From assembly GCA_021292105.1 (NCBI GenBank), contig CM037867.1, positions 15,204,928 to 15,268,927 on the forward strand: DNA of 64,000 nucleotides, written 5' to 3'. This document shows, one piece after another, positions 10,396 through 53,932 of this stretch. The notes beneath the pieces were generated by a model. That model saw only the letters and a program-made list of their open reading frames with translations, had not been told where the DNA came from and did not search any database. Within the stretch, counting starts at the first letter, position 1; every line of letters begins with the position of its first letter. Origin of the DNA: Anadara kagoshimensis. Lineage: Eukaryota > Mollusca > Bivalvia > Arcoida > Arcidae. Both the position numbers and the translations under genes were made by a program.

Positions 10396-10612
10396 GCAGA
10401 CCAAGAACCAGTTCCACAGTCATTTCTTAACTTAAATCTGACAAATCTAAAACCTTTTTATTTGAGATATTCAGGAATTCAATGTGTCATTTTCAAGATT
10501 ACTTTAGGTTTATAACATCTGCATTTTTGTTTTGAAAACAAATTTTATTGGTGGTTCCAAAAAGGGATTGTCAAAATTTACCAAGTTAAGGAAAATCCTT
10601 TTGAAACTGGTT
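10396..10612. mobile_element. MITE-5 copy
   Basis: Ends AACCAGTTCCACAGTCATTT and TTTTGAAACTGGTT with inner TTCTTAACTTAAATCTGACA and TTACCAAGTTAAGGAAAAT form inverted repeats. The centre has GATATTCAGGAATTCAATGT, shared with 45735-45950. A third copy is the core of the composite at 20068-21421. Confidence 0.65.
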
Positions 10613-10699
10613 CTAGCACCTTATTGAACCTGAGCTAGGCAATTTTTATTAAGTTTTGATGAGTTTTTATAACTTAAATAACCAAACATAGGAAAGCAG

Positions 10700-18631: not shown

Positions 18632-18651
18632 AATGGATTCCAATATAGATG

Positions 18652-19110
18652 TATAGGCAAACACCAATGACCTGTCCACTTGACCTTTCATTTTAATATT
18701 TATTATGGAGGAGTACATTTACAGTCAATCTTGTGTTTAAGGCAACCTCTATATAAGGACCACCTGCTTATAAAGCCCAGTAAAATTTTATCCCAAATGC
18801 TCTTTATTTATATGTTTTGGACCTGAATTTAAGGGTTACCTGCCTATAAAGACCACTTTTTTGGTTCCCCTGTGTGATCATTATAGACAGTTTTGACTGT
18901 ATAGGAAAACAACATTGACCTGTCCACTTGACCGAAGAGGACACCGACATATAGGGAACACATGACATAAATTCCATAAACTTAATAAACATGTGGATAA
19001 TGTATGTATTAACTGCAAACCCTAACATTTCCCATGTATTGGAGGGATCATCCTGTAAGAATATTCCTAATGAAAGGTCAAGCATTTAGGTCAAAGTTAT
19101 TTGCCCATAA
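18652..19110. mobile_element. MITE cluster: MITE-1 fragment, MITE-2, MITE-1
   Basis: 18652-18732 is a MITE-1 left end (TATAGGCAAACACCAATGAC). 18733-18899 is MITE-2 in reverse (GGCAACCTCTATATAAGGAC ... ATAGACAGTTTTGACTGTA). 18900-19110 is a MITE-1 with both ends (ATAGGAAAACAACATTGACC; AGGTCAAAGTTATTTGCCCA). The order fits MITE-2 landing in or beside a MITE-1. 19111-19480 holds nothing else. Confidence 0.75.
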
Positions 19111-19840: not shown

Positions 19841-20230
19841 GTAACCTTTTTTTATGGATGCGACTTATTTCAGCATAAGTGACTTTAAATAATACTCATC
19901 ACATATTTTGCACCAGACCGACACTATAGATTTTTTGGTGATCCTGATAAGACATGGTGTCATAATAACAGGCATTCAAACATTGAAAAGTAACAAGAAT
20001 TCACCAGATACACGATAAGATTTAGACAGTCATAACCTTGTAATACTGCGCCAGTTTGTCAGCCATAATACAGGCCAACAACATTTACCCATCATCTTGT
20101 CCTTTTGTTAGGAACATTCATACCAATACATGGCTAGTGTTAGGATCTACTGGCTCCAGTTTCACAATCATTTTCTAAACTACAATTTTCCTTAAATAAA
20201 AACTGGCAAATTTTGATGAACTTTTATCGT

Positions 20231-20393
20231 ACAGTCAAACCTGTTTATAAAGGCCACCAAGAGAACCATTAAAAGTGGCCTTTATATACAGGTTCAAATT
20301 ATATGAATAAAGAACAATTGGGATACAATTCTACTGGCCTTTATAAGCAGGTCATCCTTATATAGAGGTGGCCTTTAAGGCAGGTTGGACTAT
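20231..20393 (+). mobile_element. MITE-2 inside MITE-5
   Basis: ACAGTCAAACCTGTTTATAA, GGCCACCAAGAGAACC, TTATATACAGGTTCAAAT, ATTGGGATACAATTCTACTG and GGCCTTTAAGGCAGGTTGGA. The ends form the family's inverted repeat. Other copies: 30127-30310, 47833-48003, 62325-62521, 18733-18899. Confidence 0.85.
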
Positions 20394-20550
20394 TACAAAT
20401 AGAAAAAAAAATTCGACAAAATAAGAATATAGATGTGATAACCTTAGAGATCTTAGAATGGCACATCAAATTCATGAAAATCTTGAAAATGAACAAAATT
20501 ATTCAGATTTCAAATTTGCAAGATTTAAGTTAAGGAGTTAAGAAATGAAT

Positions 20551-21270
20551 GTGAAACTAGAGCCACTAGATCCTAACACCCGTAACCCATGTATTGTGAA
20601 ACTGGAGCCACTAGATCCTAACACCCGTAACCCATGTATTGTGAAACTAGAGCCACTAGATCCTAACACCTGTAACCCATGTATTGTGAAACTAGAGCCA
20701 CTAGATCCTAACACCCGTAACCCATGTATTGTGAAACTGGAGCCACTAGATCCTAACACCCGTAACCCATGTATTGTGAAACTGGAGCCACTAGATCCTA
20801 ACACCCGTAACCCATGTATTGTAAAACTGGAGCCACTAGATTCTAATCTCTGTAACCCATGTATTGTGAAACTGGAGCCACTAGATCCTAACACCCGTAA
20901 CCCATGTATTGTGAAACTGGAGCCACTAGATCCTAACACCCGTAACCCATGTATTGTAAAACTGGAGCCACTAGATCCTAACACCCGTAACCCATGTATT
21001 GTGAAACTAGAGCCACTAGATCCTAACACCTGTAACCCATGTATTGTGAAACTAGAGCCACTAGATCCTAACACCCGTAACCCATGTATTGTGAAACTGG
21101 AGCCACTAGATCCTAACACCCGTAACCCATGTATTGTAAAACTGGAGCCACTAGATTCTAATCTCTGTAACCCATGTATTGTGAAACTGGAGCCACTAGA
21201 TCCTAACACCCGTAACCCATGTATTGTGAAACTGGAGCCACTAGATCCTAACACCTGTAACCCATGTATT
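20551..21270 (+). repeat. 16 x 45-bp tandem array, open on both strands
   Basis: Exactly 16 units of 45 bp (720 bp). Each is the last 15 bp of MITE-5 (GTGAAACTRGAGCCA) plus 30 bp of MITE-1 right arm (CTAGATCCTAACACC, then CGTAACCCATGTATT). Only a few variant bases occur, and two units (7 and 14) share TTCTAATCTC, showing a higher-order pattern with a seven-unit spacing. Because 45 is divisible by three, a 263-codon frame (20545-21336, repeat VKLEPLDPNTRNPCI) and a 238-codon reverse frame (GLRVLGSSGSSFTIH) stay open. I take these as by-products unless transcription is shown. Confidence 0.95.
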
Positions 21271-21704
21271 GGTATGAATTGTGAAACTGGGGCCTGCAGT
21301 CACCACAATAATACTAGTAATGCATGTCTCCCATGATCACCTGTAGGTTATAAGTAAATACACTACCATAATAATTATTTAAATTAAAGGTCAAGCTGAC
21401 AGGTTAATGTTGTTTCACTATACTTAGTACTGTTTTGCATATACCTCAGTCAGTCACTGACCTGGTTCTCTATTACCTAATAGTACTTGTTTTCTGTTGA
21501 TGACATAATCAACTTATCATTGTTAATTACATGTGATTATTTAATGGTAACATAAAGATAACAACCTTTTTCTCTCGCCATTCTTATTATATGCATGCAT
21601 ACCTATGCAGCATGTGTCATTGTCAACGCTCTCAATGTATGTCAAGTATGCTGGAATAACTATGTCAAATATGTCTAGTTACCATGGAAACTATACACGT
21701 GAAA

Positions 21705-29950: not shown

Positions 29951-30126
29951 CCCTTTGCAAGGCAAGGAATCTAAAAGAAATTCAAAATGGAACATCAAAC
30001 TAATGGCAGGTTTTCACCATTTCAGAAACACTTTCAAACTACATTTTCTACTGGAATTCAAATAAACAATTGACCTCTGCGACCTTTATTTGAACCAATT
30101 TGCCATATCATTAGATAATTATAAAT

Positions 30127-30310
30127 ACAGTCAAACCTGTCTATAAAGGCCACCCAAGGGAACCAGTAAAAGTGGCCTTAAGGCTTTATATACAGGTTCA
30201 AATACAGGTTCAAATAATATGAATAAAGAGCAATTGGGATACAATTTTACTGGTCTTTATAAGCAGGTGGTCCTTATATAGAGGTGGCCTTTAAGACAGG
30301 TTGGACTGTA
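30127..30310 (+). mobile_element. MITE-2 copy
   Basis: ACAGTCAAACCTGTCTATAA at the left and GACAGGTTGGACTGTA at the right. GGCCACCCAAGGGAACCAGT, a duplicated ATACAGGTTCAAAT, and ATTGGGATACAATTTTACTG lie inside. Confidence 0.88.
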
Positions 30311-32142: not shown

Positions 32143-32262
32143 TACCGGTATACCAATTGTAATTTTTGGTATATACCGATATAGAAATTGTAATTTTTGG
32201 TATATACCGGTATACAAATTGTAATTTTTGGTATATACCGGTATACAAATTGTAATTTTCAC
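32143..32262. repeat. 31-bp array carrying a TATACCGGTATA palindrome
   Basis: About four units of AATTGTAATTTTTGG plus TATATACCGGTATAC. Each unit carries the self-complementary 12-mer. 32263-33145 has no gene; an 18-bp echo is absent elsewhere. Confidence 0.85.
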
Positions 32263-35985: not shown

Positions 35986-37018
35986 GAGGTCAGGACTTAA
36001 TGTCTGAAGAACTGACATGACAAATTCTGAAAGCAAAGCCATATTATTATTTCTGTAAAACATGTTTTCTGAATAGCTTTGCAGAAGCATTAAGGTCACT
36101 ATTTCTTTGTAGTTAATATTGATGGAATAAATCAGTTTACATTTTTAATACTTATTTGAAAAATTGTCACTGTAAATTCTCTAGGAAAGACTTCCATTTG
36201 TATCCCCCACCACTAAAATTCTTATTTTGACTCATTAAAAGCCTAAAAATGAAGGAAAAAAGGGAATTTTTTATTATTTTTGTGAAAGTTTCAAGGTTTT
36301 TTTTTTTGTGCAAAATTTGACATAGAATTTAATTCTGGTAGGTATGGGCACAAAACGAAATCTTGTTATACTTTTAAAACAAATAAAAAGAAAATTTCAA
36401 TACATGTTTATCATACTTTTCCAAAAAATATTTTGTACTATTCAGACTCTTAATTAGATTATGTCTACTTACACTACATGGTGGGTTCACTCCGGGTGTG
36501 TGCATGTGGCACAAGCTGTTGGTGCATTGATACTGCACATAAGTAAATGATATGTCAACTAGACACACCCATTAGTCAATAATAATTTGTTCTCACGTCA
36601 TATTAAATCAAATATTTAAGTAAACATATTAAGAGACTACATTATTATTCATTCAAAAAATTAAATAACACCATTTAGATCTTAAATGCAGTAAGTTTGA
36701 GTTGAGATCTTTCATGCGTCAATTTTTACAAGAGTTTACAATATGTTTACCACATGATGCTACTTATTAAGTTTTCCATCCTTCTACACGCTGAAGATGA
36801 GAATCATATGGTCTCTGGTCTAATCATTACTTCTCTTCAGAACTTCAAATTATATACCAGTAAGGTTTTATCAGCATTTTTTTTTTTTTTTTTTGTTCCA
36901 AACACAAACTTTTTATTCAGGGTATAAACTAGCTTTTTCAGTATTTTAATTTACAATTTTATAAATATTATATAGTGCATTTACTTCATGCATGCAGGAA
37001 AATATACCGGTACATCTC

Positions 37019-37470
37019 CTTACAAAGTGGAGTTGAGTTGGATAATGGTGTTTAACGTCTCAGTCAAGAATATTTCACTTATATCGACCTTACAAAGTGG
37101 AGTGGAGTTGAGTAATGGTGTTTAACGTCACAGTCAAGAATATTTCACTTATATCGACCTTACAAAGTGGAGTGGAGTTGAGTAATGGTGTTTAACGTCT
37201 CAGTCAAGAATATTTCACTTATATCGACCTTACAAAGTGGAGTGGAGTTGAGTAATGGTGTTTAACGTCACAGTCAAGAATATTTCACTTATATCGACCT
37301 TACAAAGTGGAGTGGAGTTGAGTAATGGTGTTTAACGTCACAGTCAAGAATATTTCACTTATATCGACCTTACAAAGTGGAGTGGAGTTGAGTAATGGTG
37401 TTTAACGTCACAGTCAAGAATATTTCACTTTTATCAACCTTACAAAGTGGAGTGGAGTGAAGTAATAGTG
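37019..37470 (-). repeat. 70-bp array made from a SINE-A tail, six copies plus one partial
   Basis: Units start at 37019, 37089, 37159, 37229, 37299, 37369 and 37439. Each is CTTACAAAGTGGAG followed by the reverse SINE-A tail (TTGAGTAATGGTGTTTAACG, CAGTCAAGAATATTTCACTT, ATATCGAC). Units differ mainly by GTCT versus GTCA. A reverse SINE-C (about 37480-37645: GGAAACCAGAGTACCCAGAG) follows directly. 37646-38785 has nothing recognisable. Confidence 0.93.
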
Positions 37471-38789
37471 TATTACACTGCAGCATAGATTAATTATTGG
37501 TTCAAGAATGGTTGGGGAAACCAGAGTACCCAGAGAAAAACCACCAGAGTAACAAATTTTCTTGCACTAGGATATATATATATATCTATGTGGGATTCAA
37601 ACTCTAAGACAGTGATGGGTGCTGTATGATTCGTAAGTTTCAGACTTGCCACATAGCGATCAAGGTTTTTACTATATACAAGTCTGACTTGGTGTTTTAG
37701 ATTTAACAAGATCAGATCTGTGTAATATCTCGCCTGCAAAGTATAGTGCAACTACAGTGTAAAAGTACAACTATTTTAAGTATAATTTTAAATACACCAA
37801 TTAATGAACACTATACATATTCATTAGTATTTTTTTCCCATCGCTGCACCGTGTGCCAGGTTCAGAAGTACTAAAACTTATTTTTAAGGAACACAATCTT
37901 TCAACGATACATTTTAAATAAAACCAACTTCTTTCAAATTATCTGCTTTAGTTTTATTCAGCATCAGAAAAAAACTGACATTTTCCTGGTGTAAATCTTT
38001 ATTTGAAAGGCCAAAGTAATAACAATATTTATATATTTTGATTTAAATGAAGGTAAATTTCACTGATTTTAGTGCTTCTTTAGGAGACTTTCACTTAAAG
38101 TTTTATTCAGACTAAAGAAGCTAGAAATGACTGAATTCCTGTTGCAAATTATTTTTCAAAAATTTTTACATAGAAATTAATGGGTACAAAAGGAAGTCCT
38201 ACTGGTTCTTTTTTAAGGAACCCTTACATGATTATCTAGGGATTATCCCCATTATTCCATCCAGATGTGGGGACTTTAAATAAAAAGTTGTTTTTCACAG
38301 AACTTGACATAAAAAACTGTCACAGACTGGGGTATACACAAGTAATAAATCATCACACCGGGCATCATTTTTAAACATCATTACACCAAGTTCCTATCCA
38401 AGTGGTACCCAATTAAATATGCTGGGAACCGACATGTCAAAATTCTTTTTAAAAAATCAAAATTTGAAAAGAAAAATACAGCCTTATAAACTTTATATGA
38501 TGAGTGAAATTGTTGTGAATAAAAATCCCCAAGGTTTATTCTGCTGTGAGTAACACACCTAAATTAAATTGGATTTTGTGAACCAGCATGGACAATCCAT
38601 CTTCAATATGTTTGACCAGTGAAGCATTATATTTATTTTTTACTAACTTGAATCCTATGAATGTTTAAGATACAGATATATAAAGATATCAAACATCTAT
38701 GAATAAAACATCAAAATTTTATATACAGAATTTCATTTTCTCATTTATTCTAACATAAAACTTGTGCAATAGTATTAAACTCGATATTC

Positions 38790-47830: not shown

Positions 47831-47832
47831 TT

Positions 47833-48003
47833 ACAGTCAAACCTGTCATAAAGGTCACCCAAGGGAACCAGTAAAAGTGGCCTTTCTGGGCAGGTGACCT
47901 TTATATACAGGTTGAAATAATATGAATAAAAAACAATCGAGATACAATTCTACTGGCAGGCGACCCTTATATAGAGGTGGCCTTTAAGGTAGGATTGACT
48001 GTA
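47833..48003 (+). mobile_element. MITE-2 copy
   Basis: ACAGTCAAACCTGTCATAAA at the left and AGGTAGGATTGACTGTA at the right, with GGAACCAGTAAAAGTGGCCT and ATCGAGATACAATTCTACTG inside. It lies 5 bp from the SINE-C copy. Confidence 0.85.
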
Positions 48004-53256: not shown

Positions 53257-53333
<77 letters not shown>

Positions 53334-53350
53334 CATCATCATCCATACTT

Positions 53351-53410
<60 letters not shown>

Positions 53411-53503
53411 CATACTTAAACCATCATCATCATCATCATCGTCATCATCATCATCCATACTTAAACTGTCATCGTCGTCATCATCATCATCATCATCATC
53501 ATT

Positions 53504-53541
<38 letters not shown>

Positions 53542-53576
53542 ATCATCATCATCATCATCATCATCCATACTTAAAC

Positions 53577-53624
<48 letters not shown>

Positions 53625-53633
53625 TACTTAAAC

Positions 53634-53678
<45 letters not shown>

Positions 53679-53720
53679 TACTTAAATCATCATCATCATC
53701 ATCATCATCCATACTTAAAC

Positions 53721-53751
<31 letters not shown>

Positions 53752-53779
53752 GTCATCCATACTTAAACTGTCATCGTCG

Positions 53780-53810
<31 letters not shown>

Positions 53811-53855
53811 TACTTAAACCATCATCATCATCATCATCATCATCCATACTTATAC

Positions 53856-53900
<45 letters not shown>

Positions 53901-53932
53901 TACTTAAGCCATCATCATCATCATCATCATCA
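53222..53932. repeat. (ATC)n microsatellite with periodic interruptions, SINE-C at its edge
   Basis: AATTCCACTAAGGGACAGGT, CCTAGTGTGA (53229-53258) is SINE-C body, then ATC repeats run to 53932. They are interrupted about 13 times by CCATACTTAAACC or close variants, and twice by a shared ACTGTCATCGTCGTCATC block (53464 and 53766), showing block duplication. The minus-strand 146-codon frame of aspartate runs with GLSM is a by-product. Confidence 0.93.

Follow-up and report, generated by a model that had tools for sequence, protein, structure and literature searches.

In many transposon-derived arrays, age or homogenisation has effaced the traces of their origin. In Xenopus, the Xstir MITE is found together with tandem arrays and composites (Hikosaka and Kawahara 2004, described in PMC12628747); its repeats are MITE-derived, and the description given there includes a proposed stem-loop copying by which two neighbouring elements are combined into a hybrid. 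According to the same source, miDNA4, a Tc1/mariner MITE of Xenopus (Scalvenzi and Pollet, in PMC12628747), holds an internal array of variable number, for which short direct repeats are the proposed drivers. The pearl, CvA and DTC84 elements of bivalves are described as MITE-like, with short internal tandem arrays (PMC5139131), and the relevant part of PMC4079207 presents the foldback element Tetris of Drosophila virilis, in whose terminal inverted repeats tandem repeats were amplified in place and are thought to be partly duplicates of terminal sequence. In maize, CRM1TR and CRM4TR are TE-derived arrays thought, in the account of PMC3648361, to have begun by illegitimate recombination at short homologies; CRM1TR occupies two loci, separated by about 1.4 Mb and each with variants of its own, and nested insertions were considered there as a source. 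Finally, TE dimers have been put forward as satellite seeds, parallel TE copies being the substrate of expansion (McGurk and Barbash 2018, as related in PMC12628747).

The array described here, on C11 (CM037867.1) of the bivalve Anadara kagoshimensis, is of this known kind (arrays in MITEs and in foldback elements) with one new twist, its monomer being an inverted insertion junction of two families. Compared with Xstir, as far as the cited description goes, the monomer spans the insertion junction of two unrelated MITE families, and a deletion scar shows in which direction it was copied; compared with miDNA4, where a pre-existing repeat is thought in that source to have been captured, the repeat appears to have been made in place. 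The arrays of pearl, CvA and DTC84 are presented as belonging to dispersed element families, whereas the C11 array is one locus and a collinear copy. Likewise, the TIR-220 repeats of Tetris are reported to come from one element, and the monomers of CRM1TR and CRM4TR are retrotransposon LTR-UTR sequences (about 1.4 kb in CRM4TR) with a single parent family each, whereas two families are joined at C11; and in the TE dimers whole elements are said to be repeatedly inserted at one site, whereas the parallel ends at C11 would come from an inverted copy within a nested element. The literature searched, to which subscription papers mostly did not belong, returned no passage describing an inverted two-family insertion junction as the seed or monomer of an array. 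Surviving at the two C11 loci, in spans of about 1.4 kb and 3.5 kb, are the template, the copied seed, units of 55 and 45 bp, older-looking units at the edge and two array lengths, and the order of steps can therefore be argued from the sequence.

The nested element and its families

The window, namely the whole stretch of 64,000 nucleotides that was analysed, is C11:15204928-15268927 of the 1.115-Gb assembly. The locus in question is a nested MITE: MITE-5 lies within MITE-1, and MITE-2 within MITE-5. The outer ends of MITE-1, as read from the sequence and from an alignment with the five other MITE-1 copies of the window, are at 20071 and 21420, between a TA at 20069-20070 and another at 21421-21422, presumed to be the target-site duplication; TA also stands on both sides of four of the five other copies, the exception being copy E, from which part of the right side is missing. 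MITE-1 is taken here to be Tc1/mariner-like, and MITE-2 presumably is pogo-like.

Read on the forward strand, the left arm of MITE-1 (20071-20149) carries a 13-bp deletion absent from all five other aligned copies, and is followed by the left part of MITE-5 (20150-20231), whose terminal inverted repeat opens with CTG-GCTCCAGTTTCACA. It is at about this point that genome matches begin: among the 44 returned by a 161-base query made of the left arm and the MITE-5 end (20069-20229; 40 of 512 candidates scored), 39 lie at MITE-5 and start at query bases 69-96, close to its left end. MITE-2 (20232-20390) comes next, between TA dinucleotides at 20230-20231 and 20391-20392 and inside MITE-5, in keeping with the claim of an earlier, sequence-only reading of this DNA that the element had also received a MITE-2. 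Then come the right part of MITE-5 (20393-20549), the tandem array of 16 units of 45 bp (20550-21269), a 10-bp tail, TGGTATGAAT (21270-21279), in which the inverted MITE-1 arm continues and which follows unit 16 and none of units 1-15, the native right terminus of MITE-5, TGTGAAACTGGGGC-CTG, of 17 bases (21280-21296), and the right half of MITE-1 (21297-21420). The array is located between the body of MITE-5 and its last 17 bases. Other MITE-2 copies of the window are at 30126-30307, 47832-48000 and 18723-18901; at 18651-18933, MITE-2 stands between two MITE-1 left ends of the same orientation, which is not a normal insertion.

When MITE-2 is left out, MITE-5 aligns with the single other window element of its kind, 10404-10614, at a score of 71. 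The right part (20392-20565) reaches 70 against the same element, with a maximum of 34 in 500 shuffles, and the left part alone, at 30 on the better strand with shuffles scoring up to 29, is not distinct by itself. The two ends of MITE-5 are mutual inverted repeats, aligned over 63 columns.

Both parent families are dispersed families of short elements, as in tandem-repeat-containing MITEs: the degenerate 15-base MITE-5 motif TGTGAAACTNGRGNC matches 6,081 places in the 1.115-Gb genome, a count that includes the array units (40 for the reversed control), and the 13-base word of the MITE-1 terminus matches 17,777 (60 for the control). As in that class too, the array within the element varies in copy number (16 versus 63 units, see below). 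An array-bearing element at several unrelated sites was not found, the genome searches having placed it at two collinear loci only; the locus is a single event and there is no array-bearing family. Neither does it have the extent or the distribution of classical satellite DNA, whose long arrays are dispersed or clustered in heterochromatin, being one locus and a collinear copy of 0.7 and 2.9 kb. The unit pattern had no match among viral contigs, in a set that may exclude the genome of the window itself.

As to the class of MITE-5, the NuwaI group of the PHIS superfamily is characterised, in the part of PMC4482050 that deals with it, by a 5'-CWG-3' target-site duplication and by inverted repeats that usually start with GGG. 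CWG is found at both ends of 22 out of 36 MITE-5 elements, 14 of these 22 having the identical CWG at both (about 11 expected by chance), and the MITE-5 of the array locus has CTG on either side; after CWG, the ends commonly read GCCCC or ACCCC, with variants. An autonomous partner of that group would supply a transposase and a Myb/SANT protein. MITE-5 is a possible member of the group.

The array unit, its template and the second copy of the locus

TRF reports a 45-bp unit in 16.0 copies at 20550-21271 (94% matches, 0% indels, score 1297), and the unit table counts 16 at 20550-21269, in accordance with the 16-fold amplification first noticed. Each unit consists of about 15-17 bp of MITE-5 end joined to about 28 bp of MITE-1 arm: bases 1-15 (TGTGAAACTGGAGCC) are the MITE-5 terminus and the remainder is the MITE-1 left arm in reverse. 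None of 1000 shuffles of the MITE-1 part reached the real score against the arm of the element's own MITE-1; against the other window copies, the shuffles that did so numbered, per 1000, 3 for copy G, 22 for E, 225 for D, 939 for A and 972 for B. The own arm and its relatives G and E support a MITE-1 parentage; D, A and B do not. Taken together, the motif matches and the shuffles against the own arm bear out the earlier view that the unit is not random and that it combines a MITE-5 terminus with a MITE-1 arm.

The template of the unit is the left MITE-1/MITE-5 junction read on the reverse strand, at 20116-20168. The breakpoint of the unit coincides with this junction, and the unit is the reverse complement of 20116-20168; the latter aligns with 21223-21279 at 89.5% over 57 columns, the single copy pairs with the array in inverted orientation at 97% over 32 nt in eight listed pairs, and at the tail of the array 18 of 18 bases pair. 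A single junction copy in inverse orientation therefore exists where the sequence-only reading placed one, but its interpretation of 20116-20166 as the opposite junction was mistaken, since these bases are the unit's template. The actual opposite junction, GTGAAACTGGGGCC-TGCAGTCACC, in which MITE-5 passes into the right half of MITE-1, is at 21280-21299, after the array and single. With up to three mismatches it occurs at exactly two places in the genome, one in the window and one in the second copy of the locus (reversed control 0).

From which MITE-1 the unit was copied is indicated by the 13-bp deletion. The 18-mer CCATGTATTGGTATGAAT, which crosses the deletion scar of the left arm, occurs exactly at four places in 1.115 Gb, i.e. 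the window left arm, the tail of the window array and both tails of the second array; seven further places have one mismatch, namely the left arm of the second copy and six sites on other contigs (reversed control 3). This distribution makes it most likely that the array was copied from its own MITE-1 arm, in an ancestor of both locus copies. That the scar differs from the neighbouring MITE-1 copies by 1-2 bases only (GGTATGAAT versus GGTTGAAT or GGGTGAAT) speaks against this origin of the seed, yet the genome count is in its favour. The MITE-1 part of the units also has four extra bases (CCG and A, or variants) which are in the left arm of neither locus copy; they must have arisen after the copying or have their source in a different MITE-1. 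Within the window array there is a block repeat, units 3-8 being of the types c b a a E a and units 11-15 of the types c b a E a.

The composite occurs at two places only in the genome search, 770 kb apart on C11. The 45-bp repeat was also looked for as a widespread satellite free of MITE flanks: with up to three mismatches, the junction pattern is found at 79 places, all of them at two collinear loci: the window accounts for 14 of its 16 units and for its inverted single copy, the second locus for 63 units at C11:14454185-14457014 and for its own inverted single copy. The left junction is likewise confined to the same two loci, both by the junction pattern and by the 161-base query (40 of 512 candidates scored), the matches of which, other than those at MITE-5, are the whole window locus, the second copy from query base 21 onwards and three pieces of the second array. 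Unamplified MITE-1/MITE-5 composites, which the sequence-only reading had proposed to seek, were found neither by the genome junction patterns nor by the same query at the same depth, so that the earlier state is deduced and not observed.

Most of the window is collinear, in inverted order, with C11:14411345-14480368, over more than 64 kb and in long pieces mostly of 90-98% identity. Beyond the window start, the match of the second copy reaches the last base before a gap of 1000 N (C11:14492815-14493814), and the genome hit list has several same-letter pairs on C1, C2 and C3, with about 300-900 kb between the two members. Because of this gap and these pairs, the second copy is judged, by a narrow preference, to be an alternate haplotype that has stayed in the assembly instead of a large inverted duplication. 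The two loci have one origin and two later histories and are not independent; hence there is a single origin event to argue from.

The two arrays have diverged in size, 16 units (0.7 kb) in the window and 63 (2.9 kb) in the second copy, and the consensus and 32T are the only unit types common to both. The last two units of the second array are 55 bp long, each with the 10-bp tail, and its units 60 and 61 keep bases of its left junction (18C in one; 17G,18C in the other) that are lost from the consensus. Fourteen tandem arrays were compared between the copies. Two agree in length, one is off by 2 bp, and in the remaining 11 the difference exceeds 2 bp. Since most of them differ, change in array length is ordinary in the region. 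The window arrays of 70 bp x 6.5 (37018-37471) and 31 bp x 3.8 (32143-32259) correspond, as measured between shared anchors, to 126 bp and 18 bp of the second copy, respectively.

A proposed origin and its alternatives

The minisatellite was probably born from the left insertion junction, an inverted copy of which would have been made by template switch and then expanded in tandem. MITE-5 inserted into MITE-1, and MITE-2 into MITE-5, as their present nesting attests, the second insertion having taken place either before or after the copying. Synthesis copying the right end of MITE-5 would then have switched to the left end, which is possible because the two ends are inverted repeats, passed the left junction and run about 35 bp into the MITE-1 arm, to return by a second switch into the right MITE-5 end at the short similarity ATGAATGT / ATGATTGT (8 bases with one mismatch, the product having one extra T). 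Such an event would leave 53 bp of the left junction, in inverted copy, next to the right end, which is what the locus contains, the switch being the presumed cause.

In this way, parallel MITE-5 termini 55 bp apart would have become available to misalign and to give a 55-bp tandem duplication, and a loss of 10 bp between two ATTG words would have produced the 45-bp unit. Forms of 55 bp are present, and the order of these two changes is the likely one: the two 55-bp units at the end of the second array suggest that the unit originally measured 55 bp and was cut down to 45 bp at the ATTG repeat. Block duplications, presumably through slippage or unequal exchange, would have followed, and separate change in the two locus copies would have led to the 16 and 63 units now counted. 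The intermediate states between nested element and array are reconstructed, none having been found to survive; this, the four extra bases of the unit and the imperfect similarity at the return switch are the weak points of the proposal. According to the sequence-only reading, a transposon insertion junction itself became the seed of the array. This holds insofar as the repeated unit is a transposon-transposon junction, but the right junction is still single, and it is the left one, in inverted copy, that was amplified. Given that the amplified form is the inverted left junction, the step of inverted copying must precede amplification.

A course without any template switch can be conceived, in which MITE-5 landed in the middle of a palindromic MITE-1, both junctions would read into one arm and simple tandem duplication would suffice. 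It would fit the fact that the unit and the left junction are mutual inverted repeats, as are the ends of MITE-1 themselves; however, the single MITE-5 terminus after the array joins the own right half of MITE-1 at the point where the left arm stops, this join reading GGATCTG followed by CAGTNAC as against GGATTCRCAGTTA in other copies, and no palindromic MITE-1 is apparent among the five other aligned copies of the window, so this course is rated unlikely. It is far less probable still that a pre-existing satellite was captured by the MITE and that its likeness to the junction is secondary. Such a model has been published, as PMC12628747 relates for Xenopus miDNA4, but at C11 the breakpoint of the unit coincides with the left junction, and the 79 places of the unit (up to three mismatches) include no third locus in the genome, upon which the captured satellite was rejected.

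Amplification by copying of the left junction might also have been favoured by selection, the repeated MITE-5 termini serving as extra binding sites for a transposase, by analogy with what PMC4079207 mentions as a suggestion for repeats in the inverted ends of Galileo. The occurrence at other loci of tandem MITE-5 termini with other fillers would agree with this. Against it, the element has not spread, its two copies sharing more than 64 kb of collinear surroundings and thus not being transpositions; exact termini in tandem, 10-200 bp apart, were found at none of 47 other sampled MITE-5 loci (some of them near-copies of one another); and tandem MITE-1 termini occur too, as expected of a neutral process. 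An adaptive amplification is consequently held to be quite improbable. The second copy as a transposed element was rejected on account of the same surroundings, collinear over more than 64 kb.

The chance that the array encodes part of a repetitive protein can be considered next to negligible, even though 45 is divisible by 3 and the array is open in one frame per strand: the stop-to-stop frames are 20542-21336 on the forward strand (264 codons) and 20538-21299 on the reverse strand (253 codons), and the Pfam families PRY (E 6.6e-13) and STAS_2 (E 2.2e-8) score above their own cut-offs, three other families remaining below theirs. These scores, however, are sums of repeated weak matches, none of the five families passing on a single stretch and the best PRY stretch covering 10 residues; a stop-free unit of 45 bp stays open by arithmetic, the 55-bp last two units of the second copy shift the frame, and the unit is accounted for by MITE ends. 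With Pfam sums as the only signal and with units that shift the frame, the coding repeat was rejected. Open on both strands and with summed PRY and STAS_2 scores, the array is a trap for automatic annotation.

The array most likely has no function; it is a well-preserved example of the origin of a repeat, with no evidence of a new function, and not a working device.

Tandem repeats at other MITE termini

The array is not as singular as the sequence-only reading implied, since other tandem repeats join the MITE-5 terminus to other sequence. A gapped pattern of two MITE-5 termini in parallel, with 15-45 bp between them, gave 145 matches (12 for the reversed control). Among the first 100 of these, together with one locus from a narrower search, there are at least 16 unit types, the array's own included, with periods of 22-59 bp; for five of the 16 no more than a dimer is seen, which might represent two adjoining elements, and two of the types apparently consist of MITE-5 end sequence alone. 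Tandem arrays or dimers of MITE-5 termini, with different fillers, are located on C1, C4, C5, C8, C9, C10, C11 and C16, with arrays at C1:45810491, C4:28682542, C9:73845990 and C16:18216869 among others, and the fillers of the other arrays would be flanking DNA. Apart from the 45-bp array, the longest among the matches listed measures about 1.2 kb, with a 35-bp period; the arrays of greatest length in that list include C8:52089719 (26 bp), C11:77715 (55-56 bp) and C11:7867139 (35 bp), and an array like that of C11:7867139 is found in inverse orientation at C11:8903182. Per copy, tandem MITE-5 termini are uncommon, as is apparent from their absence at all 47 sampled loci.

For MITE-1, three same-strand clusters of the terminus were found among about 100 places listed out of 17,777, with spacings of about 55 bp (C1:4424827-4425596), 51 bp (C1:1083433) and 21 bp (C1:944873); no excess over background is claimed for them or for the MITE-5 repeats. 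With such repeats at other loci, the array locus belongs to a process that recurs in the genome and is of a known kind. That MITE ends are moreover preferred birthplaces of minisatellites in this genome, every insertion junction being a possible seed and the filler recording the event, is a tentative and rather doubtful generalisation; the preference would come about because an inverted partner is nearby, so that copying errors could put host or neighbouring sequence between parallel termini. If MITE ends do repeatedly seed minisatellites, the other arrays of the genome would allow both the rate of such events and the part played by inverted repeats to be counted.

Some further arrangements deserve mention. 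At C2:26006782-26007126, a 171-bp tandem duplication (TRF 2.0 copies, 99% matches) extends over a MITE-5 right end and its flank. At C12:15432189-15432326 and C12:15400018-15400155, 32 kb apart, two MITE-5 ends stand head to head without a spacer. Lastly, the window includes an ATC repeat of about 215 units, at 53261-53932.
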